A DNA stretch of 49,652 nt, taken from positions 1 through 49,652 of the IMG/VR virus record IMGVR_UViG_3300044695_007728; one strand, given 5' to 3'. A program made the translations under genes and the position numbers. Below, piece after piece: positions 2,392 to 34,781 of this stretch. Below the pieces are notes generated by a model. It was not told the origin of the DNA. It saw only the letters and a list, made by a program, of their open reading frames with translations, and did not search any database. Origin of the DNA: a virus. Positions within the stretch are counted from its first letter, which is position 1; each line of letters opens with the position of its first letter.

Positions 2392-2748
2392 ATGTCTAGA
2401 AAAATTTGTTCATATTGTGGCAAGCGTAAAAATAAGGGGAGTTTCCCTAAACACAGTATGTATAAAGATAATCTTGATAGTAGATGTAGAAAATGCGTGA
2501 AGAAACATTCTAAGGTTAGAGTTAAGCTACACAAGAAAGCCCCTCCAAAACCAGAAGTTTGTGAGTGTTGTAAAAAAATCCCATACAAATGGTGTTTGGA
2601 TCATGATCATGACGACGATAGTTTTAGAGGATGGCTTTGTGAACCATGTAATACTGGCATAGGAAAACTTGGAGATAATTTTGCTGGTATTACGAATGCT
2701 ATGAATTATTTTCTTTCAAGACAAAAACGATATGAAAAACAAGATTAG
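2392..2748 (+). CDS. Endonuclease VII-like (T4 gp49 family) HNH nuclease
   Basis: This 118-residue protein starts with two CxxC pairs (CSYC, CRKC). CECC follows, then LDHDHDDDSFRGWLCEPCNTG with a downstream LGD, the signature of recombination endonuclease VII. T4 endonuclease VII resolves Holliday junctions and trims branched DNA before packaging. It has the short size typical of this family. Its end overlaps the start of the following gene. Confidence 0.85.
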   Translation: MSRKICSYCGKRKNKGSFPKHSMYKDNLDSRCRKCVKKHSKVRVKLHKKAPPKPEVCECCKKIPYKWCLDHDHDDDSFRGWLCEPCNTGIGKLGDNFAGITNAMNYFLSRQKRYEKQD

Positions 2749-2947
2749 AGAACATTTAATAGAAAACGATATGACTTACTATCAGCATTTTAAATTTGCT
2801 GTATTTTTTGGATTCTTATCTGTACTAGCAGGTTTTTGTTTGATAGTTCATGCGTTTTTCCCATGCTGGTTTCAAACGTCTGGTAGTGATTTGGTTCAGT
2901 CAATGGCTATTGTGTTCAAGAAACGAAAACGATTAGACGATACTTGA
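2732..2947 (+). CDS. Small membrane protein, widespread phage family
   Basis: The 71-residue product has one strong membrane segment in the middle (AVFFGFLSVLAGFCLIVHAF) followed by FPCWF. The pattern MTYYQHFKFA-FFG-HAFFP recurs in many phages and resembles the DUF6356 type. Function is unknown. The ATG at 2732 overlaps the preceding gene; an in-frame ATG at 2771 would give a shorter form beginning MTYYQH, closer to how such proteins usually start. Its end carries the -35 box of the ligase promoter. Confidence 0.6.
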   Translation: MKNKIREHLIENDMTYYQHFKFAVFFGFLSVLAGFCLIVHAFFPCWFQTSGSDLVQSMAIVFKKRKRLDDT

Positions 2948-2972
2948 CAAGTGGACTACCGTATGGTAGAAT
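2944..2972 (+). promoter_or_regulatory. Promoter for DNA ligase
   Basis: TTGACA at 2944-2949 and TAGAAT at 2967-2972 are 17 bases apart. The predicted transcript would begin near 2980, upstream of the ATG at 2998, which argues against any earlier start for the ligase. Confidence 0.75.
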
Positions 2973-2997
2973 TGGGACAACACAGGAGAAAATAAAA

Positions 2998-4299
2998 ATG
3001 TCGTTTGAGCATCTTAATGGTTTTGTTCGTGATCTGAAAGCAACTAGTAGTACTCTTGATAAGGTTGGCATTATTGAGGATTATACTTCCTCTAATGAGA
3101 GTGGAGCAAATTTTCTTAAAAAGATTCTGCTCTATACTTATCATCCTCTTTGGCAGTATAATGTAACTAGTGATAATCTTAAAAAGAAAAGTCATCTGCG
3201 TGGCAGAGTCTACAAGTCTATATTTGATCTGTTGGATGCTTTGAAGAATAGAGAAATTACAGGTCATGATGCCATTGGAGCAGTTAATAGCTTTATTGAC
3301 AATCAAAGAGAATACGAAGAACTCGTTCATTGCATCATTGACAAGGATTTGAAAACCCGTGCTGGAGATAAGCTGATTAATAAGGCTATTCCAGATCATA
3401 TCCCAACATTTAGTGTTGCTCTAGCGGACAAGTATGTTCCTAAAATTGTAGACTGGAAGGATGGGTGGTATGTTAGCAGGAAGATCGACGGTGCTAGATG
3501 TATTGCTATTGTTGACGGTAATAGTAATACTACCTTTTATTCCCGCACGGGAAAAATCTTTGATACTCTTGATATTGTTAGCGGTGGCATTAAAGCTTTG
3601 GGACTTACTAATGTAGTTCTTGATGGAGAGCTTTGTCTGGTTGATGAAGATGGTAACGAGGATTTTCAAGGAGTAATGAAGGAACTTCGCAAGAAGGATC
3701 ATACTATTCCTAATCCTTCCTATAAAATTTTTGATATGATTACTCATGACGAGTTTTATAGTCAAAAGGGAGAAAAGAATCGACCATTTAGTATCAGGCT
3801 CAAGAATCTTACAGAAGTTATGAAGAAGAATGAGTGTCCTTGTTTGACGCTGTTGGAACAATCTTTGGTGAAGGATGAGAGTCACTTTCAAGAGTTTGTG
3901 ACCGAATCCAATCAGAATGGATATGAGGGGCTTATGCTTCGATCTGACGCTCCATATAAAGGTAAACGATCCAAAGACCTATTGAAGTATAAAGCGTTCT
4001 CAGATGACGAATACGAAGTTCTGGACACAGAAATGGGGCCATTTCGTTATGTTAAGGATGGTGCAGAATGTGAGGAGACTATGTTGAGTTGCGTGATGAT
4101 TCAACACAAGGGTCATACTGTTAGAGTAGGGTCTGGTTTTAGTATCGAACAAAGACAAGAGTTTTATAAGAATCCTAAGAAAATTCTTGGCAAGCAAATA
4201 ACTGTACAATATTTTCAAGAGACAGAAAACGAGAAGGGTGGGCTTAGTCTTCGCTTCCCCACTTTTAAGATTCTTCATGGAGAAGAAAGAGACATATAG
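2998..4299 (+). CDS. ATP-dependent DNA ligase
   Basis: This 433-residue protein has the nucleotidyltransferase motifs in order. The adenylated lysine lies in RKIDGAR (K162), SRTGK follows, then LDGELCLVDEDG, EGLMLRS and LLKYK. An OB-fold region ends the protein. It seals nicks in duplex DNA using ATP during replication and repair, like T4 gp30. The start is set by CAGGAGA and by the promoter at 2944-2972, which excludes the longer open frame. It has its own promoter, unlike most neighbours. Confidence 0.95.
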   Translation: MSFEHLNGFVRDLKATSSTLDKVGIIEDYTSSNESGANFLKKILLYTYHPLWQYNVTSDNLKKKSHLRGRVYKSIFDLLDALKNREITGHDAIGAVNSFIDNQREYEELVHCIIDKDLKTRAGDKLINKAIPDHIPTFSVALADKYVPKIVDWKDGWYVSRKIDGARCIAIVDGNSNTTFYSRTGKIFDTLDIVSGGIKALGLTNVVLDGELCLVDEDGNEDFQGVMKELRKKDHTIPNPSYKIFDMITHDEFYSQKGEKNRPFSIRLKNLTEVMKKNECPCLTLLEQSLVKDESHFQEFVTESNQNGYEGLMLRSDAPYKGKRSKDLLKYKAFSDDEYEVLDTEMGPFRYVKDGAECEETMLSCVMIQHKGHTVRVGSGFSIEQRQEFYKNPKKILGKQITVQYFQETENEKGGLSLRFPTFKILHGEERDI

Positions 4300-12455: not shown

Positions 12456-15131
12456 ATGAAGTTGGCAGATAGGACGATTGAGACTCACAGTATTGGCGTT
12501 GCAAGCAGGAATCAGTTTAACATTGCTCAGACGAGCAAAATGTTTAAAATCCTTTCAGACTCTCTTTATTCTGATAAGGTTATGGCTGCGATTCGTGAGC
12601 TTTCTACTAATGCTTATGATAGTCATATCTCTGCCGGTAATAAGAATCCCTTTAAGGTTACTCTCCCCACTGCTGCCAATCCCACCTTTGTGGTGAGAGA
12701 TTATGGTACTGGTCTTAGTCAGGAAGATATGGAGGACTTGTATACAACCTACGGAGCGTCCAACAAGAATGATAGTAATGATTTTGTTGGTTGTCTTGGT
12801 CTAGGATCTAAGAGTCCCTTCGCATACACCAAGAGCTTCACTACTGCATCATATTACAACGGTAAGAAGTATACCTATATTGCTGCGATTGACGAGAGCG
12901 GAGTTCCTACTCTGAATCTTTTCAATACTTCTAATACGTCTGAGCCTAATGGTCTTGAGATTAGTTTCGCTGTTAAGCAGCATGACTTTCAAGAGTTTAC
13001 CGACAAGGCTAAGAGAATCTTCCACTATTTCCGCATGAAACCCATCCTTGAAGGTGGTATCGGTAATAATCTGCAAGATCATAAGTACAGTAATACCAAT
13101 ATCATCATCAGTGGTGAAGGTTGGAGGGTTTGCCGACTCAATAATGACAACAGTTATTTCCCCAGCAACTACCACCGAATTGATAGTGGTATCGTGGCTA
13201 TTATGGGTAATATTGCCTATCCTGTTCAGACCGCACAGATCGTTGGTCAAGAGAAGGAAGAAATGCCTGATCATATCCAGAAGTGGAATAGGGCTTTCCA
13301 GAAAGCAGATATTGATTCTTGGAAGAGTTTCGTTGGAGAGATTCTTAACTCCGGCCTGTATCTTGAGCTTGATTTTGGTATCGGTGAACTGGAAATGGAT
13401 GTTTCCCGTGAAGGTTTGCAGTATACCAAAGATGTGATCAAGACTCTGCGTAAAAAGACCCAAGAAATTTACATGGAGATGAAGGAAGAATTCTCCAAGA
13501 AAATTCAAGCCGCCCAAAACAAGGTAGAGGCAATTACTTCATATTATACTATGAATGAATTGGCTGGCGGCTGGGGTGTTGGTGCTACTTGGACTGATCC
13601 CAAGGGCAAAGATCATCCTATTAATTCTGGTAATGACTTGGAATATAAAATTCCTGCCGGTAAGAGTCTGTACGTTTTTAATTACAAGACTGCTGGCTAT
13701 CGTTCTCGTCGCCAAGTTGCTCTAACAGACAGAATCCATCACGAAACTCTTACTGGTAAAGGTTCTTATTACTGGAATAACCAGAAGAAGAAGGGTACAA
13801 TGGCTTTCTTTGTGTGCGACGTTGCGAGTGAAGAAAGCGCCAAGAAAATTCTCACAAGATATTGTAATGCTAACGATTGCTTTGCTTATCTGATGATCGA
13901 CACTAAGGATCATACAAAAAGTAACGAAGGGTTTGATCAACTGGTCGAAGATGTTGGGGCTGAAAATCTGCTCAAGGTTTCAGACTATAAGCATCTGACA
14001 CAAAGTTCTGGCCCAAGAAAGTCTTATAATAGAAATTCTAATGGTAGTGTCAGCGACCAAGACGTATTTTTTATCCACGGTTATGATAAGGATAGTAAGC
14101 AGATTACTAATCCTTACAATGATGCTACTTCTCTGAGAATTCTTTCAGAAGAACAGCTAGAGAATTTTCTGGAACAAGATGAGATTGTTTATGTTCCCAT
14201 GTTGAGGTATGGAACTGAACCTGAGTCTGGTTGCCCAGAGATCAATAGCATTAGTAGAACTCTCCAAGAGGATACTCTAAAGAGCATAGTCAAGGACTTG
14301 ATTGGCAATAGTAAGATTTATGCTATCAAAACAGCTTTCATTAAAAAGCTTGAGAAGGATGGTTATAATCTTGTTAACTTCAATGATTTTCTGAAGCGTC
14401 AACTCAAAGTTGTAGCACAAAAGCACTTTAAGAATCTCGGATCTATCAACAAGCTTATTGAATTCTGCAAGAAGGATTATGCTGAAGAAGAGAAGATGGC
14501 TGGAGGATACAGGTATTACCAGCATGGAACAACAGATAAGCAGTTTATGTTTCATATGCTGAATATCTTTGGTCTGGATTATGATAAGTTTATCGGCAAT
14601 AAGACTCTTGTGGATTGTTTGAATAAGACCATGCTCACAGAGTTCTTTGCTAATACTGTTCATGTGAGTCCTTTTAATATTCCACGATTCAATCAAACAG
14701 AATATCTTTCCCATATCTCTAAGCTTATGAAAGAGATGGGGATTGAGGATGTTGATGGGAAGGAGATTCGTAATGCTAATTTGGCCTACAACACCTTGAC
14801 AAAAATGATTGTTAATTACTTGTATGCTGGTGATAGTAAGTCAGATGCTTATCTAAAGATTATCCGTGGAACTTCTACGGAAGATTTGAAGAGATGGAGA
14901 ATCTCTGAGATTAGGGAAAAGATTAAAACTGAGGTAGACAAGAATCCTATGCTCAAGGTTATTATGGGAAATCATCAAGTCTCTGGTAATCTGGTAGACC
15001 TTAAATCTAATCAGAATCCTATCATTGAAGATCGCTCATACTATGGAAAGCAGAGCAGGGATTGGGTTGAGCAGATGAGCCAGGAAAATATTGACCTATT
15101 TAAGATTCAGTTGAGTAGTTTGATCAAGTAG
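12456..15131 (+). CDS. rIIA: rIIA-like protein, GHKL ATPase domain
   Basis: This 891-residue protein's N-terminal domain has the GHKL ATP-binding motifs: AIRELSTNAYDSH, VRDYGTGLS and GCLGLGSKSPFAY. The long C-terminal part is less conserved. In T4, rIIA and rIIB associate with the membrane and protect against the RexAB exclusion system; the family also helps replication. It starts at 12456 after TTTGGAGA with its own promoter. It differs from neighbours in richer, more regular codon use. rIIB follows with a separate promoter. Confidence 0.93.
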   Translation: MKLADRTIETHSIGVASRNQFNIAQTSKMFKILSDSLYSDKVMAAIRELSTNAYDSHISAGNKNPFKVTLPTAANPTFVVRDYGTGLSQEDMEDLYTTYGASNKNDSNDFVGCLGLGSKSPFAYTKSFTTASYYNGKKYTYIAAIDESGVPTLNLFNTSNTSEPNGLEISFAVKQHDFQEFTDKAKRIFHYFRMKPILEGGIGNNLQDHKYSNTNIIISGEGWRVCRLNNDNSYFPSNYHRIDSGIVAIMGNIAYPVQTAQIVGQEKEEMPDHIQKWNRAFQKADIDSWKSFVGEILNSGLYLELDFGIGELEMDVSREGLQYTKDVIKTLRKKTQEIYMEMKEEFSKKIQAAQNKVEAITSYYTMNELAGGWGVGATWTDPKGKDHPINSGNDLEYKIPAGKSLYVFNYKTAGYRSRRQVALTDRIHHETLTGKGSYYWNNQKKKGTMAFFVCDVASEESAKKILTRYCNANDCFAYLMIDTKDHTKSNEGFDQLVEDVGAENLLKVSDYKHLTQSSGPRKSYNRNSNGSVSDQDVFFIHGYDKDSKQITNPYNDATSLRILSEEQLENFLEQDEIVYVPMLRYGTEPESGCPEINSISRTLQEDTLKSIVKDLIGNSKIYAIKTAFIKKLEKDGYNLVNFNDFLKRQLKVVAQKHFKNLGSINKLIEFCKKDYAEEEKMAGGYRYYQHGTTDKQFMFHMLNIFGLDYDKFIGNKTLVDCLNKTMLTEFFANTVHVSPFNIPRFNQTEYLSHISKLMKEMGIEDVDGKEIRNANLAYNTLTKMIVNYLYAGDSKSDAYLKIIRGTSTEDLKRWRISEIREKIKTEVDKNPMLKVIMGNHQVSGNLVDLKSNQNPIIEDRSYYGKQSRDWVEQMSQENIDLFKIQLSSLIK

Positions 15132-15152
15132 TCAGAAATTTCTCAAGACCCC

Positions 15153-15180
15153 TTGACAAGCTTGCCGATTAGTGTAAAAT
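15153..15180 (+). promoter_or_regulatory. Promoter of rIIB
   Basis: TTGACA at 15153-15158 and TAAAAT at 15175-15180, 16-base spacer, with GCCGAT at 15164-15169 in the spacer as in the rIIA promoter. Confidence 0.75.
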
Positions 15181-15224
15181 GACAGTATCACAGGTATCGT
15201 AACTAAAAACTAGGAGTTTGGATT

Positions 15225-16118
15225 ATGGCTGTTCCGTTTATGTTTGTGGATGGTAATTTGACGCTGGTTCTTAATAACCAGAGTTATCAGGTGTTGCCGG
15301 ATCATATCAACTATAAGTTGATTCTGGAAAGACTTCCTACTGCTACGGCAGAGGAACTGTTGGAAGTTGTTGATGTTCAAAAGGCTGTTGCTTCTTTTAG
15401 CGACGGTCTTGTGGAGATCAAGAATGGACAGGTTCTCTACGAGGGTGAGGAAGTTCATGGTAGTATTAGTAAGAGAATTCTGGAGTTTATGAGCAAAGGA
15501 CTGCCTTTCCAGCCCCTTGTTAATTTCCTGAATAATCTCATGGAAAATCCAAGTATGCAGAGCCAAAAGGAACTGTACGATTTCTTGGAGCATGAGCATC
15601 TTCCGATTACTGAGGACGGTTTCTTCCTCGCCTATAAGGCTGTTCGTTCAGACTTTAAGGACAAGTATAGGGGAGTTTTTGACAATAGGGTTGGTAAGGT
15701 CTGCGAGATGACACGATCTAAGGTAGACGATGATCGTGGTCGTGGTTGTTCTAATGGACTTCATGCTGGGGCATTGAATTATGTCGCTGGTTATGGTAGT
15801 CTGGAGGCTGGCGACCGTATCGTAATCGTTAAGATTAATCCCAAGGATGTTGTGAGTGTTCCTAGTGATTGCAACTATGAAAAGCTCCGTACTTGCCGCT
15901 ACGAAGTGGTTGCTGAGTATGAGGGTGAACTTCTCAAGCCTCTTTACAAGGCGGATTTTAGTCAGGACGATTACGAGGATGATGAGGACGATTATCTGAA
16001 TGACTATGATGAGAGCTATTGGGATCAGTTTGATGATGAGGACGAAGATGAGGACGAGGATTATGTAGGCGATGAGGATGATTCGGATTTGGATAATGGA
16101 CTCTACGGAAAGTATTGA
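15225..16118 (+). CDS. rIIB: rIIB-like protein
   Basis: This 297-residue protein begins with a YQVLPDHINYKLILERL region. The family core follows: KRILEFMSKGLPFQPL, then EDGFFLAYKAV and CSNGLHAGALNYVAGYG. The last 45 residues are almost entirely Asp, Glu and Tyr. In T4, rIIB acts with rIIA in the membrane-linked lysis and exclusion phenotype. The ribosome site is TAGGAG. The rIIA-rIIB order is kept, but unlike T4 each gene here has its own promoter. Confidence 0.93.
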   Translation: MAVPFMFVDGNLTLVLNNQSYQVLPDHINYKLILERLPTATAEELLEVVDVQKAVASFSDGLVEIKNGQVLYEGEEVHGSISKRILEFMSKGLPFQPLVNFLNNLMENPSMQSQKELYDFLEHEHLPITEDGFFLAYKAVRSDFKDKYRGVFDNRVGKVCEMTRSKVDDDRGRGCSNGLHAGALNYVAGYGSLEAGDRIVIVKINPKDVVSVPSDCNYEKLRTCRYEVVAEYEGELLKPLYKADFSQDDYEDDEDDYLNDYDESYWDQFDDEDEDEDEDYVGDEDDSDLDNGLYGKY

Positions 16119-16212: not shown

Positions 16213-16290
16213 TTTGGATATTGCTTTTGATGGTAGTGTTTACTGTCCCAATATCAAAACTGTAGGCAGGAAGTGGAAAAAGGAAAACAA

Positions 16291-17433
16291 ATGTTTAGCG
16301 ATACTTTGGCTTTTAATCCGTTTGATAAGACTCATAGTGCTATTGGAACGAGAGATCAGATTACTTTGCGAAATAAGTTTTTTGATTCTTTTGGTGGTCA
16401 GCAGATTTTTTGTTATAATGGTGATCCTCGCAAGAAGATCAGTAGCATGAATCATACGGATCATCTTACCACCGTTGCTATTGCAAATGATAGTCAAGGT
16501 GCTGATGCTTATTTCTACGTTAATGGTGGACGTAAACAATATGCGATTAGTAGAATTCGTGCTTGTTTTGTTGATATGGATGCTGGGCGAGATGATCAGG
16601 GTCGTTATTTTAAGCCCAGTATCGTCATGCAAAAGAAAAAGGAGTTCTTGAACCAGATCAATAGCTTTCCAGTAAAGCCAAGCTGGGTTGTTGATACTCG
16701 CAATGGCTATCAGTGCTACTGGATTCTAAATCCAAACAATATCAATCCTCATAAGACTTATTGGAGTGGTATTCAAAAGAAACTGGTAAATCATTTTGGT
16801 GGTGATGCCAGAGCTATCAAGATCAACCAGATTTATCGTATCCCTTATACTTGGTGGAGAAAAGGTTGGGAGGGTAAGCAACCTTACTTTACTAGTATTC
16901 TGTCAGGATCAACTGGTAATCCGATAAATATCGAACAACTGAAACAGGCTCTTGATGGCGTTTCTGCTGTGGTTAATATTGTTGCTAATAAGACTAGCGA
17001 TGAATGGTTTAAGGAATATGCTAAGGCTTATAAGAAGTCTGATATTACGGGGGTTCCAGTAGCAGTTAATGTTGCTGCAACTATTGCCAATCAGATGAAC
17101 TCTTTAAACCTTAACACATATACCAATAGCACAGACGATATCAAGACAAAGTATGTCTATTCTGGTCATGGTATGTTCAATAAGGCTTATGGTGATCCTA
17201 CTCCAGTATCTCCTGTAGATGACGAGGACGATACAGATTCTCTTGAGCCGCTTCCTGTTGACGCTGGGGGCGAGGATTTAGATCTTGACGGTTCTCAGAC
17301 CAAGCTTTTAAAGACGGTCGTGGAGTTCCTTAATCAAGTCTCAACGCCGCTCTACTTTAGCAATAATAGATTCCTGTCTAATTCTGCTAAGGAACTGGCA
17401 TCTAAAATCAGCGACAAATTTTGTATCGGGTGA
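16291..17433 (+). CDS. Primase-polymerase (AEP superfamily) candidate
   Basis: This 380-residue protein has CFVDMDAGRD (D95 and D97, the catalytic DxD). WVVDTRNGYQCYW resembles the second AEP motif (usually xGxGxHxYW), and GGDARAIKINQIYRIPYT resembles the third Asp plus RIP motif. Together they point to the RepB or PrimPol-like archaeo-eukaryotic primases, which make primers or fill gaps. The usual His of motif II is Gln here. The start at 16291 has AAAGGA; a GTG start 18 bases upstream is weaker. No helicase domain is fused. Confidence 0.72.
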   Translation: MFSDTLAFNPFDKTHSAIGTRDQITLRNKFFDSFGGQQIFCYNGDPRKKISSMNHTDHLTTVAIANDSQGADAYFYVNGGRKQYAISRIRACFVDMDAGRDDQGRYFKPSIVMQKKKEFLNQINSFPVKPSWVVDTRNGYQCYWILNPNNINPHKTYWSGIQKKLVNHFGGDARAIKINQIYRIPYTWWRKGWEGKQPYFTSILSGSTGNPINIEQLKQALDGVSAVVNIVANKTSDEWFKEYAKAYKKSDITGVPVAVNVAATIANQMNSLNLNTYTNSTDDIKTKYVYSGHGMFNKAYGDPTPVSPVDDEDDTDSLEPLPVDAGGEDLDLDGSQTKLLKTVVEFLNQVSTPLYFSNNRFLSNSAKELASKISDKFCIG

Positions 17434-18111: not shown

Positions 18112-18353
18112 TTATGAAAACCTATTTTGAAATTACCTTTAATCGCAGTCAGTATAATAATGAATTTAATACCATGTCAGAAGCTCTTAGTGTTGTAGAA
18201 AAAATAATTAACGAAGATAGGGCGATACCCGAAACAATAATAGAAAGAGACAGAAAGTCTGATAGGGTTGTAGCTATTTACAAACCAACTTTTAGTGCTA
18301 AACTTATATGTACTGAAATACCAAAATATAATGGAGCTTCACTATTATCATGA
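18108..18353 (+). CDS. Small protein, unknown
   Basis: The 81-residue product has TYFEITFNRSQYNNEF then helical SEALSVVEKIINEDRA, a beta-helix-beta pattern. It starts with ATGATTATG; the second ATG at 18114 is equally plausible. It overlaps both neighbours. Confidence 0.55.
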   Translation: MIMKTYFEITFNRSQYNNEFNTMSEALSVVEKIINEDRAIPETIIERDRKSDRVVAIYKPTFSAKLICTEIPKYNGASLLS

Positions 18354-18787
18354 AAGATCAAAACGAACCGTGGTTTTATATCAATGATTTAGAGGGTTTT
18401 GTAGATAATTCTAGACAACTAGTTTTCAAGTTTTTTGGTCAGAGCAATGAAATAGCAGATGATTCACTAACCGCTTCGTTAGCATCATTAGGCGATTTAG
18501 ATCAAGAAGAGCTTGATAAAACAATATCACATGAAGAAGCGACAGTAATAATTAAGAATAGAGCTAAGATTCAAATCAATAGAAAGTCTAAGCAAAAAAG
18601 ATATTGCATAAATGACGAGATATTGCAGCTTATTATAGAAGATCTTAATAGTAGAATGGTAAGTAATATACTTACAAAATTAGTAGTAGACGGTGTTATT
18701 GAGAGCGCTTTTGATACAGAAAAGAACGACTTTATTTTTTGGGTGAAAGAAGAAGATGATCAAAACTCTAAACCAGAAACCGACTGA
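18350..18787 (+). CDS. Unknown soluble protein
   Basis: The 145-residue protein is charged and helical, with DEILQLIIEDLNSRMVSNIL near the C terminus, then an acidic end. It could be a small binding partner of replication genes nearby, but nothing specific is visible. Its end overlaps the next gene by 32 bases in another frame. Confidence 0.55.
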   Translation: MKDQNEPWFYINDLEGFVDNSRQLVFKFFGQSNEIADDSLTASLASLGDLDQEELDKTISHEEATVIIKNRAKIQINRKSKQKRYCINDEILQLIIEDLNSRMVSNILTKLVVDGVIESAFDTEKNDFIFWVKEEDDQNSKPETD

Positions 18788-19178
18788 ACACGATATCCAT
18801 CTAAAATATTTATGCCAACAGTGCGGAGAAACGCATTGGCTATCTTTTTTAGAAGCATCTACAAAAAACTTTAAAGTAGTATGCCATTGCGGTAATACTT
18901 TTAAGGTAAAAAGAGTAGATGGATTCAAGCTTAAGTACGCGAATAGAAAAAAGAAGCCAGCAGTAGTCCAGCATACCTCAGACCCTATGGTATCAGATAG
19001 TCTGACAGAACAAGAAATTCCTGTTGACCTACTGAATAATTGTGTTAAAATACTTATTGGCTATGGCTACGATAAGCAGGAGTCAATAGAACTCCTATCT
19101 TGTGCGTATAGAAAAAATCCGGTGGATAGCGTATCATCTTTGGTTAAACAAACTTTGGCATCATTAAAGGATCTTTAA
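18756..19178 (+). CDS. Zinc-ribbon protein with RuvA domain III-like C terminus
   Basis: This 140-residue protein has a zinc ribbon at residues 20-45 (CQQC...CHCG). Residues 92-139 read LLNNCVKILIGYGYDKQES followed by VSSLVKQTLASL. This matches RuvA domain III, the three-helix module that contacts and controls RuvB (ALxxLGYxxxEA...LIxxAL). It sits one base before ruvB. No RuvA tetramer or junction-binding domain is present, so it may load RuvB in a new way. Function is inferred from context. Confidence 0.65.
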   Translation: MIKTLNQKPTEHDIHLKYLCQQCGETHWLSFLEASTKNFKVVCHCGNTFKVKRVDGFKLKYANRKKKPAVVQHTSDPMVSDSLTEQEIPVDLLNNCVKILIGYGYDKQESIELLSCAYRKNPVDSVSSLVKQTLASLKDL

Positions 19179-20078
19179 ATGAGTATTAATGTTATTAGAC
19201 CGTCTTGTTTTAATGATATTGTTGGTCAATCAGAAGTGGTCAACAGACTAAAAATCATCACTCACGGCTGTAAAATGTCGGGCAGCGTGATGCCTCATAC
19301 TTTAATAGACGGGCCTCCCGGCCTTGGTAAAACGACAATAGCCAGTTCCATAGCGAACGAACTAGGCGTGAACTTATATACCATCAATGCTGCGAATATC
19401 CGAAGCATCAAAAATATACTACCTTATCTTATGGGGATTGCTCCTCAATCAGTATTGTTTATTGATGAGATTCATAGACTGACTAAGATAGTAGAAGAAT
19501 TTTTATATCCCGTAATGGAAGATTTTGTTCTTAATATTACTGTTGAAGATAAACCTGAAACTATTGATCTTCCACTATTTACTTTGATTGGGGCTACTAC
19601 CAGCGGTGGTAGCTTAAGCCAACCTTTCTATGATAGGTTTACTATTAAAGAGCATCTTTCCTATTATAGTTGTGATGAACTAGCTAAACTAGCCAGATCG
19701 AACGCAGATAAGCTCGGACTAAACATTAAGGAAGACGATCTTATTGAGATAGCAAAAAGGAGTAAGGGTACACCAAGAATTTTAAACGCTAGACTACAAT
19801 GGTATAGAAACTACACTAGTTTTTATGAGGGTAAAGAGGTCAGTATTGATGAGATATTTAATAACCAGGGTATTGACTCAAGAGGTCTAGATGTCTATGA
19901 TAAGATGTATCTGGATGTTCTAAAGAAGTCTAAGGGTGCAGCTTTGGGATTAAAAAGTATATCATCACTAACTGGCATAGCTATTGAAACTATCGAGAAT
20001 AGCATTGAGCCTTATCTTGTAAGGATGGGCTATGCGGTTAGAACTCAAAAAGGAAGAGTTCTAGGAGATGTTTCGTAA
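19179..20078 (+). CDS. ruvB: RuvB-like Holliday junction branch migration ATPase
   Basis: This 299-residue protein carries Walker A (GPPGLGKTT), Walker B (LFIDEIHR), the sensor 1 region (GATTSGG) and the arginine-finger region (YDRFTIKEHLSYY). A C-terminal winged-helix region starts near GIDSRGLD. It lacks only a few residues compared with bacterial RuvB. It drives branch migration or fork restart. It follows the RuvA domain III-like gene and overlaps the start of the thioredoxin gene. Confidence 0.93.
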   Translation: MSINVIRPSCFNDIVGQSEVVNRLKIITHGCKMSGSVMPHTLIDGPPGLGKTTIASSIANELGVNLYTINAANIRSIKNILPYLMGIAPQSVLFIDEIHRLTKIVEEFLYPVMEDFVLNITVEDKPETIDLPLFTLIGATTSGGSLSQPFYDRFTIKEHLSYYSCDELAKLARSNADKLGLNIKEDDLIEIAKRSKGTPRILNARLQWYRNYTSFYEGKEVSIDEIFNNQGIDSRGLDVYDKMYLDVLKKSKGAALGLKSISSLTGIAIETIENSIEPYLVRMGYAVRTQKGRVLGDVS

Positions 20079-20460: not shown

Positions 20461-20788
20461 TATATCTTTTACTATCAATATACCAACATTAATTTTAGGA
20501 TTTTTATTTGGCGGGTGTTTATTTTTAATAGGCTATTTTTATGGTAAATCTAGGTCTGTTGATACTCATGGTGTATCATTTTATGGAGAAAATAAGCCAC
20601 GAAGTTTTTTTAGTGAAAACAACAAGGCGGCAAAACCAAAAATTAATATAGATGACACTAAGGTAGTTACTGATATCAAAACAGATGAGCTAGAAAAAAA
20701 ATATGAACAGTTAGGAGATATTAAAAACTCCAATGAAAATATTAGTAGCTCTATAAACAAGCTTAAAAATATGAAAAATAATTTATGA
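20453..20788 (+). CDS. Membrane-anchored coiled-coil protein
   Basis: This 111-residue protein has one transmembrane helix at about 9-29 (LILGFLFGGCLFLIGYFYG). A polar linker and a C-terminal helical region (ELEKKYEQLGDI) follow. Function is unknown. It overlaps both neighbours. Confidence 0.6.
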   Translation: MNDISFTINIPTLILGFLFGGCLFLIGYFYGKSRSVDTHGVSFYGENKPRSFFSENNKAAKPKINIDDTKVVTDIKTDELEKKYEQLGDIKNSNENISSSINKLKNMKNNL

Positions 20789-21390
20789 AAATTTGTGGTA
20801 TTTATCAAATCATTAATATCGTAAACAATAAAAGATATATAGGTCAATCTATTGATATTAAAAATAGATTTATTCGACATAAATATCAATTAAATAAAAA
20901 TATTCATGATAATAAAAAACTACAAAATGCCTGGAACAAATACGGCAAACAATCTTTTAAATTTGAGATATTAATTAAATGTAATAAAGAGCTTTTAAAA
21001 AAGCTAGAAAAACAAGAAGTAGAAAAAATTGCTGAACACAGCTATAATATCAGTAAAAACTATGATAATCTTTATGGAAAGAATAATCCATTTTATGGAA
21101 AAACACACAATCAAATAACAAAAGAAAAAATGTCATTAATAGCAAAAAGTCGCACTGGAAATAAAAACCCCAATTATGGCAATAAAAATTCTATTAAAAC
21201 AAAAATTAAAGCAGGACATAATAAAAAAACCAAATTGACTAAAAAACAAGTTACAAAAATTATAAAGACCCAAAATAAGACGCATCAAGAAATTGCTAAT
21301 ATATACGGGGTTTCAAGAAGCGTTATCACTAGAATTAAAAATGGCACAAGATGGGGCCTTATCACTAATATTAATGGAGACAATATATGA
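20785..21390 (+). CDS. GIY-YIG homing-type endonuclease
   Basis: This 201-residue protein has a GIY-YIG nuclease domain at 1-90 (GIYQI...YIGQS, then RFIRHKYQL and the conserved Glu in QEVEKI). NUMOD3-like repeats follow (NNPFYGKTH, NPNYGN), then a C-terminal HTH (IANIYGVSRSVITRI). It is free-standing, not within an intron, and overlaps neighbours by ATGA. Its Lys- and Asn-rich composition differs from neighbours and fits recent entry. Confidence 0.93.
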   Translation: MKICGIYQIINIVNNKRYIGQSIDIKNRFIRHKYQLNKNIHDNKKLQNAWNKYGKQSFKFEILIKCNKELLKKLEKQEVEKIAEHSYNISKNYDNLYGKNNPFYGKTHNQITKEKMSLIAKSRTGNKNPNYGNKNSIKTKIKAGHNKKTKLTKKQVTKIIKTQNKTHQEIANIYGVSRSVITRIKNGTRWGLITNINGDNI

Positions 21391-22400
21391 GCGGATGCGG
21401 ATTAGATGTAGGTACCAGCTATATAGTATTTGCAAAAGAGAAGAATGAACAAAATGAAAATGTAGTCTATAAAGACTTTAGAGACGCTTTTTATGTTATC
21501 AAGCCAACGACACCAGTAGCCACTAAGATGATAGAAAAAGGACTAGCGGGGAAAGTTTTTATTAAAGATAGTGATGGCTCTTTTATTCTTTTAGGCAAAG
21601 ATGCAATAGAAAAAGCAATAGAAAGAAACGACACAGCAAAAAGACCAATGTACAAAGGAGTAGTTTCTGCTAAAGAAAAAGACGCAAAGAAGATCCTAGC
21701 TTTTATATTGAAAGAGGTTGTTGGTCAGGCTTCTGAAAAAAATGAACAGCTTGTTTTTTGCGTTCCTGCTCAACCAGTAGATCAAGAAGATGAAGATTTT
21801 GATGTTGGATATCATGAAGATGTAGTAAAAACCATATTAAGTGAATGTGGCTATAATGCTAAAGCTATTAATGAAGCTGAAGCATTATGCTATGCTGAAC
21901 TAGATATAGAAGATTATACAGGAATTGCTATTAGTTGTGGTGCTGGCATGACAAATGTTTGTGTCATGTTAAATGGAGAACCTACTGTAGTATTTAGTAC
22001 AACAAAAAGCGGAGACTGGGTAGATCGCATGAGTGCGGTAGCAACAGGAGAACCAGATAGTGTTGTACAGGCAGAAAAAGAGGGTGGTGGCTTTGTAATA
22101 GGAGAACCAAACGATAGTCCTATTTTAGGAGCAGTGTCCTCATACTATGAGAGACTAATAGACTATACAACAAAACAACTAGCACATGCCCTAACTAATC
22201 ACAAGTCTTTACCAAAATTTAAAAATCCATTAACAATTATTGTTGCTGGTGGTACTTCGCAAGCTGCGGGATATATTGAGGAGTTTGCTAAAAAGCTAGA
22301 AGAAAATGGGTTTCCTCTTGCAATCAAAGAAGTAAAACACGCATCTGATCCATTACATGCCGTTGCTAAGGGATGTCTAATAGCCGCCAAGGTATTATAA
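21387..22400 (+). CDS. Actin/Hsp70-superfamily ATPase, ParM-like
   Basis: This 337-residue protein has the phosphate 1 loop (GLDVGTSYIV), NEAEALCYAELD at the connect region, phosphate 2 (ISCGAGMTNVCV) and the adenosine loop (IIVAGGTS). It may form filaments for plasmid-like partition or positioning of phage DNA, as in other large phages. Family placement beyond the superfamily is uncertain. No adjacent partner gene or centromere-like repeat is seen. Confidence 0.8.
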   Translation: MSGCGLDVGTSYIVFAKEKNEQNENVVYKDFRDAFYVIKPTTPVATKMIEKGLAGKVFIKDSDGSFILLGKDAIEKAIERNDTAKRPMYKGVVSAKEKDAKKILAFILKEVVGQASEKNEQLVFCVPAQPVDQEDEDFDVGYHEDVVKTILSECGYNAKAINEAEALCYAELDIEDYTGIAISCGAGMTNVCVMLNGEPTVVFSTTKSGDWVDRMSAVATGEPDSVVQAEKEGGGFVIGEPNDSPILGAVSSYYERLIDYTTKQLAHALTNHKSLPKFKNPLTIIVAGGTSQAAGYIEEFAKKLEENGFPLAIKEVKHASDPLHAVAKGCLIAAKVL

Positions 22401-33672: not shown

Positions 33673-34129
33673 TCAATATAAAATAGTATGGCAAAAATGG
33701 ATCGATCCATTTGGTCAAGATCAGGAAGAGTCTGCCTCTTTAGATTATGAAAATGAAAATCCAGATTTATCCTCATCATATTCTAGATCAAATAAAGATG
33801 AAAATATATCAGATAATGAAGATGAATCTATTATCAAAAAACAATCAATAAAAGTTATTGCTTCTCCGATGGGGCTGATCCCCTATAATGAGCATACTGC
33901 AAGTGGGAAAATTTTTAATTTCTGGTTAGGTCACACTAATTTTGACATAACTATAAATGTGTCTAAAATAATAGAGAATACAGACGGAGTAGAAGCTCTA
34001 GATATTTTTACACGATACAGATTTCGTGTTGCTATCGGAAAATGTTTTGGTGCTTCTGAAACAATGGTGAGAATCCAAGAAAACATTTGTAGGTATTTAG
34101 ATGAGCAAGAACTCGACAAACTCTCCTAA
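33662..34129 (+). CDS. Unknown late-region protein with acidic linker
   Basis: The 155-residue protein has a low-complexity Ser, Glu and Asp stretch at about 20-55, then a compact domain (IKVIASPMGLIPYNEH, and FNFWLGHTNF). It may be structural. It overlaps the ClpP-like gene by 29 bases. Confidence 0.5.
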   Translation: MLHDQYKIVWQKWIDPFGQDQEESASLDYENENPDLSSSYSRSNKDENISDNEDESIIKKQSIKVIASPMGLIPYNEHTASGKIFNFWLGHTNFDITINVSKIIENTDGVEALDIFTRYRFRVAIGKCFGASETMVRIQENICRYLDEQELDKLS

Positions 34130-34781
34130 TTTATTTGATATCCACAACTATAATATAGACCCAGAAAATAGAGAGATATATCTTCATTCATATTTATGCG
34201 ATAATGAAGAAGAGGGAGGCGTGGATTATCGTAGTGCTGTTATATTTGAAAAAAATTTACGATATTTGAATCTCATCTCGTTAGATCCAATATTAGTTCA
34301 TATGCATCTTCCTGGAGGAGCTTGGCAAGATTGTTTAGGTATGTATGACGCTATCAAAAGCTCTAAGAGTAAAGTATGCATTATAGCATATGCAAAAGCA
34401 GAATCTTCTAGCAGCGTATTATTACAAGCTGCAGATTTAAGAGTATTAACGGTCAACACAAATGTTATGATTCATTATGGGTCTTTTAGTATTAATGAAG
34501 AACATTCAAAGGCTGCTGCTAGTTCTATTAAATGGAACGAACAAGAGTGTGACAAGATGATTGAAATCTTCACCGAAAGGTGTATGAATAGTAATATATG
34601 TAAGCAAAAAAATTGGAAAAGGTTAATGGTTCGTAAACATATCACTTCACAATTAGCCAATAAATTAGATTGGATACTAACAGCAAACGAAGCAGTAGAT
34701 TATGGCTTTGCTGATGGTATTCTTGGTAGTAAAAAATTTCCTAACATTGACTACATTAAAAACTATATGAAAAAAATCTAA
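34101..34781 (+). CDS. ClpP-like protease, candidate prohead protease
   Basis: In this 226-residue protein MHLPGGAWQDCLGMYDAI is the ClpP glycine loop. AKAESSSSVLLQAAD holds the Ser, VMIHYGSF the His, and LTANEAVDYGFADGIL the Asp region. Phage ClpP-like enzymes in head clusters usually trim the prohead or scaffold. The position between head-type genes fits that role. Confidence 0.82.
   Translation: MSKNSTNSPNLFDIHNYNIDPENREIYLHSYLCDNEEEGGVDYRSAVIFEKNLRYLNLISLDPILVHMHLPGGAWQDCLGMYDAIKSSKSKVCIIAYAKAESSSSVLLQAADLRVLTVNTNVMIHYGSFSINEEHSKAAASSIKWNEQECDKMIEIFTERCMNSNICKQKNWKRLMVRKHITSQLANKLDWILTANEAVDYGFADGILGSKKFPNIDYIKNYMKKI

Follow-up and report, generated by a model that had tools for sequence, protein, structure and literature searches.

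A RuvA domain III-like protein with a zinc-ribbon head is encoded directly beside RuvB in uncultivated phages and may serve as an adaptor of the RuvB motor

The window, i.e., the whole stretch of DNA that was analyzed, is the 49,652-base record of an uncultivated virus (IMG/VR record IMGVR_UViG_3300044695_007728). Within it, a small gene, herein named ZnR3, is followed at once by a gene for a phage RuvB: the ATG of RuvB comes immediately after the ZnR3 stop codon, with zero gap and in the same frame. In bacterial RuvA, domains I and II hold the Holliday junction, and domain III tethers and regulates RuvB. The features of the two genes are as follows.

18756..19178, plus strand: ZnR3, 140 amino acids, TAA stop; zinc ribbon at residues ~1-62, a variable linker and a RuvA-domain-III-like three-helix domain at residues ~87-140.
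18813..18890, plus strand: zinc ribbon core, C20-x2-C23 ... C43-x-C45; four cysteines invariant in 95/95 relatives, predicted local distance difference test (pLDDT) of 94-98, basic.
19014..19175, plus strand: RuvA domain III-like domain, with helices at residues 90-102, 107-120 and 126-138; hhalign E 7e-7, VIA Z 6.8-8.5.
19179..20078, plus strand: RuvB, 299 amino acids, ATG start; AAA+ large domain, lid and winged helix.
19530..19574, plus strand: RuvB presensor-1 hairpin region, without an equivalent of E. coli residues 145-148; the other hydrophobic positions are kept.

Relatives were collected from viral contigs. A RuvB-seeded scan yielded 80 loci, and two scans seeded with ZnR3 alone yielded 144 loci, with some contigs recurring between scans; one of the 144 was not ZnR3 and two ended too soon, leaving 141 usable loci. 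The alignment of ZnR3 (A1) contained 36 sequences, and residue conservation was counted in 95 distinct relatives. The phages carrying ZnR3-RuvB are uncultivated and mostly from freshwater, with genomes of up to ~238 kb.

The C-terminal domain of ZnR3 was compared with known families at the levels of sequence and structure. The best Protein Data Bank (PDB) sequence match of the 36-sequence profile was RuvA domain III (1ixs_A, from a RuvA-RuvB complex structure; E 4.8e-4), and the 12 PDB sequence matches include several further RuvA chains. When ZnR3 was compared by hhalign with 28 aligned bacterial RuvA proteins, residues 87-139 were placed on E. coli RuvA 154-203 with a probability of 91.8 and an E value of 7e-7. 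The profile was also run blind on 395 whole Bacteroidota genomes and matched in 119 of them, mostly at profile positions ~75-134 in open reading frames (ORFs) of ~190-260 residues; the best matches fetched from these genomes were RuvA in 9/9 cases, aligned over the last ~55 residues. The AlphaFold model of ZnR3 has a mean pLDDT of 87, with the C-terminal helices at ~95. With this model, the top 8 Foldseek matches (probability 0.97-1.00) and the top 13 VIA matches (Z 6.8-8.5, root-mean-square deviation 1.3-2.2 Å) are RuvA domain III. A VIA Z below 8 may reflect a common arrangement in helical bundles; the sequence evidence here is independent of VIA. A single ZnR3 sequence gave no significant domain III match in Pfam, PHROGs or NCBIfam, and only the family profile matches. 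Since the sequence profile, the profile-profile comparison, the blind genome search and the fold all agree, it is strongly supported that the C-terminal domain of ZnR3 is a homologue of RuvA domain III.

The positions that contact RuvB were then compared. In the hhalign pairing, E. coli RuvA L167, L170, G171, Y172 and L199 correspond to ZnR3 L100, Y103, G104, Y105 and L134. Among the 95 relatives, position 100 is L in 92, position 103 is Y, L or F in 94, position 104 is G in 94, position 105 is F or Y in 92, and position 134 is L or I in 94. According to a passage in PMC2628435, citing Nishino 1998, the E. coli RuvA substitutions L167A and L170A abolished RuvB activity in vivo and left junction binding unaffected.

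The N-terminal half of ZnR3 is different from RuvA. C20, C23, C43 and C45 are all kept in the 95 relatives, the first knuckle being CxxC (CxxxxC in a few relatives) and the second CxC, and the model places a beta-ribbon at these cysteines. Two cysteine knuckles on a beta-ribbon identify ZnR3 as a zinc-ribbon protein. Small zinc ribbons such as ZitP, LysW and ribosomal S27e share the ribbon fold at low VIA Z (2.8-3.9), but no close family was found. The ribbon half has a mean isoelectric point (pI) of 9.3 and a net charge of +3 to +13 in 36/36 members, and the domain III half is acidic, with a mean pI of 5.6. The basic character of the ribbon half is suggestive of nucleic-acid binding, with which it would fit.

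RuvA domain I (RuvA_N, the oligonucleotide/oligosaccharide-binding fold) gave no match in ZnR3. For domain II (helix-hairpin-helix), hhalign aligned only RuvA 154-203, which is domain III, to ZnR3, and no helix-hairpin-helix family was among the scan results listed for the 36 members. ZnR3 has no room for domains I and II: its N-terminal half is made up of the ribbon, at residues 1-62, and linker. ZnR3 as a whole has no clearly matching family in PHROGs, Pfam or NCBIfam. The original prediction, made from the sequence alone, had described a zinc-ribbon protein that lacks the junction-binding part of RuvA, carries only its domain III and abuts ruvB. Its coordinates and the abutment proved exact, and the ribbon, the missing part and the domain III, including the structural match, were all borne out.

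The neighbor of ZnR3 is, by its sequence, a bona fide RuvB with the catalytic and DNA-contact residues intact. Pfam recognizes RuvB_N (2e-45), RuvB_C (2.5e-16) and AAA_lid_4 (1.5e-10) in it. The NCBIfam RuvB model NF000868 scores 296.7 bits, above its cut-off of 282, and TIGR00635 is just under its cut-off. The protein is 40% identical to E. coli RuvB, and the family profile reaches E values as low as 3e-73 against PDB RuvB chains. K68, D113, E114 and R174 (Walker A/B and arginine finger; E. coli R174) are identical in 35/35 relatives, and the basic positions of RT(Q/P)KGR, the counterpart of the RTPRGR DNA-contact motif of RuvB, are invariant; the roles of these motifs are given in PMC10071043. 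RuvB matches in the phage collection are all below 60% identity, the best being 40%, and most of the near-full-length matches among those listed come from metagenomic or draft records without annotation. No RuvB family in PHROGs matches clearly.

The two genes are tightly linked. RuvB lies directly downstream of ZnR3 in 141/141 usable loci of the ZnR3-seeded scans, and a ZnR3 homologue lies directly upstream of RuvB in 66 of the 80 RuvB-seeded loci. ZnR3 mostly overlaps or nearly abuts RuvB. In the RuvB tree, it is present in most lineages, including deep branches. Because ZnR3 is homologous to RuvA domain III and its gene is found only beside RuvB, its predicted docking on RuvB via this domain is strongly supported.

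The recombination genes of these phages were then surveyed in 19 large relatives of 113-238 kb. These are fragments or of uncertain completeness, so the absences below are provisional. Bacterial control genomes were positive for RecA, RuvA_N, RuvA_C and RuvC. RecA was found in 19/19 and Endonuclease_7 in 14/19 of the relatives. RuvA_N was found in 0/19 (10/14 control genomes positive) and RuvC in 0/19. RuvA_C was also found in 0/19, in a search that misses ZnR3 as well and thus speaks more strongly against a canonical RuvA than against a diverged one. The window itself encodes an ATP-dependent DNA ligase at 2944-4299 and the following nuclease.

2392..2748, plus strand: endonuclease VII-type HNH nuclease, a possible junction resolvase; Pfam Endonuclease_7 2.7e-11.

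The phage thus seems to steer a RuvB motor without a junction-binding RuvA of its own. We lean toward the reading that ZnR3 acts as a minimal adaptor: by docking on RuvB, it would recruit the motor to branched DNA or activate it there, giving a motor-plus-adaptor for branched recombination or replication intermediates. Domain III of ZnR3 would bind the phage RuvB at its presensor-1 hairpin; like its bacterial counterpart, it would tether RuvB and speed the nucleotide exchange of the motor. Taking the place of the tetrameric domains I and II of RuvA, the basic ribbon would guide RuvB to junctions, forks or a DNA-bound phage protein; we infer that it may take over the junction-binding role of RuvA. 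RuvB would then pump duplex DNA and migrate the branch that the phage RecA has formed, which would be cut by the endonuclease VII-type nuclease and not by RuvC. For the stronger form of this reading, a RuvA-free branch-migration machine in which, with no RuvA tetramer involved, RuvB is both recruited to branched DNA and activated there by the ribbon/domain III adaptor, the case is evenly balanced.

Several results weigh against this reading. RuvB occurs without ZnR3 in 14/80 loci (L045, L025, L027, L029, L033, L039, L040, L043, L044, L047, L051, L062, L069 and L075) and is still conserved there. A whole-record search of 12 of these ZnR3-less records found ZnR3 nowhere else. In the eleven ZnR3-less loci printed, the deletion is clean, leaving a gap of 11-62 nucleotides, and a ribosome-site-like motif of the TTGGAG type remains before RuvB. 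On the RuvB tree, the presence of ZnR3 needs six state changes, at least two of which are forced by well supported branches, corresponding to 2-6 losses. As RuvB persists without ZnR3 and ZnR3 always stands beside RuvB, the dependence is one-way, and the pair is not obligate from the RuvB side. The conservation of RuvB in 2-6 lineages after a clean deletion of ZnR3 indicates that RuvB can work without it, perhaps with host RuvA. The RuvB hairpin, the expected docking site, is four residues shorter than that of E. coli in lineages with and without ZnR3. The interface was not readable in an AlphaFold model of a fused ZnR3-RuvB (TAA read as Q), in which the RuvB multiple sequence alignment was shallow and the core pLDDT was below 50. 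Finally, DNA binding by the ribbon and branch migration by ZnR3-RuvB are predicted activities.

The main alternative, which these losses favor, is that the phage RuvB works with host RuvA. As an accessory acquired later, ZnR3 would then not replace host RuvA but compete with it, or release or re-target RuvB from it. In the loci without ZnR3, the catalytic and hairpin residues of RuvB are unchanged. In a RuvB scan of genome contigs, all matches were phage contigs assigned to two Bacteroidota metagenome-assembled genomes (MAGs), apart from one marginal 27-residue match. The cassette-bearing contigs were binned in a Flavobacteriales MAG and a Chitinophagia MAG, which hints at Bacteroidota hosts without showing them. 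RuvA is present in 41/41 Bacteroidota genomes sampled, and cross-species complementation between RuvA and RuvB is known (PMC9477746). However, most lineages have ZnR3, deep branches among them, and it was never found away from the phage RuvB. A later accessory working beside host RuvA is a real but rather doubtful alternative.

Two further upstream features belong to the neighborhood of the ZnR3-RuvB pair.

18350..18787, plus strand: N145, overlapping upstream gene, invariant operon member, weak helix-turn-helix (HTH)/winged-helix-like matches.
12456..16118, plus strand: rIIA-like (12456-15131) and rIIB-like (15225-16118) genes, which mark the upstream side of the conserved cassette.

N145 overlaps the start of ZnR3 by 23-53 nucleotides in all loci but one, and it is retained where ZnR3 is lost. 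It has no confident fold match, with weak HTH and DsrD matches only. The operon is really a triad of N145, ZnR3 and RuvB. The rIIB-like gene matches annotated phage RIIB genes by tblastn. By gene order in the 80 loci, the cassette rIIA-rIIB-(PrimPol candidate)-g136-N145-ZnR3-RuvB-...-actin is common to contigs of up to 238 kb. A Volactin-type actin gene (21387-22400; Pfam PF25216, 3e-60) lies downstream of RuvB in most loci; its only relatives in the phage collection are two, from uncultured phages of 485-595 kb. The PrimPol candidate (16273-17433) shows high conservation among some of the loci (A7) and is absent from many relatives; its best RepB_primase match, E 0.012, is under the cut-off, and no PDB sequence matched. 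A GIY-YIG-looking ORF (20785-21390) lies between a membrane-protein gene and the actin gene, and a short related ORF stands at a similar position in L057, L060 and L061. A ClpP-like protease gene is located at 34101-34781 (Pfam CLP_protease 1e-13).

The interpretation in the original prediction is thus partly supported overall, with the replacement of domains I and II by a DNA-binding ribbon and the branch migration by the pair standing as predictions. The gene pair it expected in other phages recurs, but RuvB also stands alone; its two-gene module is linked as described, but is embedded in the triad; and of the neighbors it named, the actin-like gene is firm, whereas the PrimPol-like gene is weakly supported.

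The makeup of the cassette bears on a second alternative, in which RuvB/ZnR3 moves DNA for fork remodeling, segregation with actin, packaging or transcription, and the ribbon is a protein-protein adaptor. Zinc ribbons commonly bind proteins. A conserved actin-like gene and rIIA/rIIB lie in the cassette, along with further genes that likewise have no link to recombination. One relative, G003, encodes a Pol III alpha-type polymerase, a DnaB helicase, a Toprim primase and a PD-(D/E)XK nuclease. T4 queries, a weak test, found no clamp or clamp loader in it; RuvB is the only gp44-like protein among its ORFs by phmmer, and whether RuvB itself is the loader was considered. However, RuvB is full length and above the NCBIfam cut-off, its winged-helix DNA-contact motif is intact, and RecA is present throughout the large relatives. 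Such another purpose is unlikely.

It is more improbable still that ZnR3 is aimed at the host, with domain III binding host RuvB and blocking or hijacking host RuvAB. Phages frequently target host recombination, and the domain III homology would permit such binding, but ZnR3 occurs only directly beside the phage RuvB in all 141 loci, with overlapping genes. The last alternative, a generic UBA-like three-helix bundle that resembles RuvA domain III by chance, is scarcely credible and already contradicted: UBA/CUE domains also match the ZnR3 model (VIA Z ≤ 5.8) and only 4/36 members reach E < 1 to Pfam RuvA_C, but every UBA/CUE row is outranked by RuvA in the sequence and structure searches, the blind genome search picked out RuvA, and the gene adjoins ruvB.

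The adaptor reading was then compared with known systems. Bacterial RuvAB (E. coli, Thermus, Pseudomonas; PDB 1ixr, 1ixs, 7pbl, 7x7q) shares the three-domain RuvB motor with its active-site residues, and the small gene beside the phage ruvB encodes a homologue of domain III (Pfam RuvA_C, PF07499; ZnR3 residues 87-140) with the RuvB-contact positions kept. In contrast to bacterial RuvAB, the phage partner has a four-cysteine zinc ribbon in place of domains I and II, which form the tetrameric junction platform; the RuvB hairpin is shortened, and the large relatives give no RuvA or RuvC match. Domain III thus stands in another domain context in ZnR3, and single ZnR3 sequences mostly fall under the Pfam cut-off. 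ZnR3-RuvB can be described as a RuvB motor whose domain III adaptor bears a different head. Junction-processing sets in a survey of 224 jumbo phages consist of RuvC, T4 endonuclease VII and RusA (PMC7824862). The present phages share with them a phage-encoded endonuclease VII-type possible resolvase, but encode RuvB with an adaptor and without RuvC. ZnR3 was detectable in no phage of a 50,697-record collection and in no record of a plasmid collection. No earlier description of a ZnR3-RuvB module was found in the open-access literature, and a paper elsewhere is possible.

The two roles of RuvA are hard to separate experimentally when joined in one protein, and it is equally hard to ask whether anything but the RuvA tetramer can bring RuvB to DNA. 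These phages appear to have split them naturally, and the lineages with RuvB and no ZnR3 are natural knock-outs in which pairing with host RuvA is testable. As far as the open-access literature shows, no phage RuvB module would have been described before this one, which belongs to a large group of uncultivated phages in which searches found neither RuvA nor RuvC. If the adaptor reading is true, the motor-control domain of RuvA is detachable from the junction platform and can be given a new targeting head.
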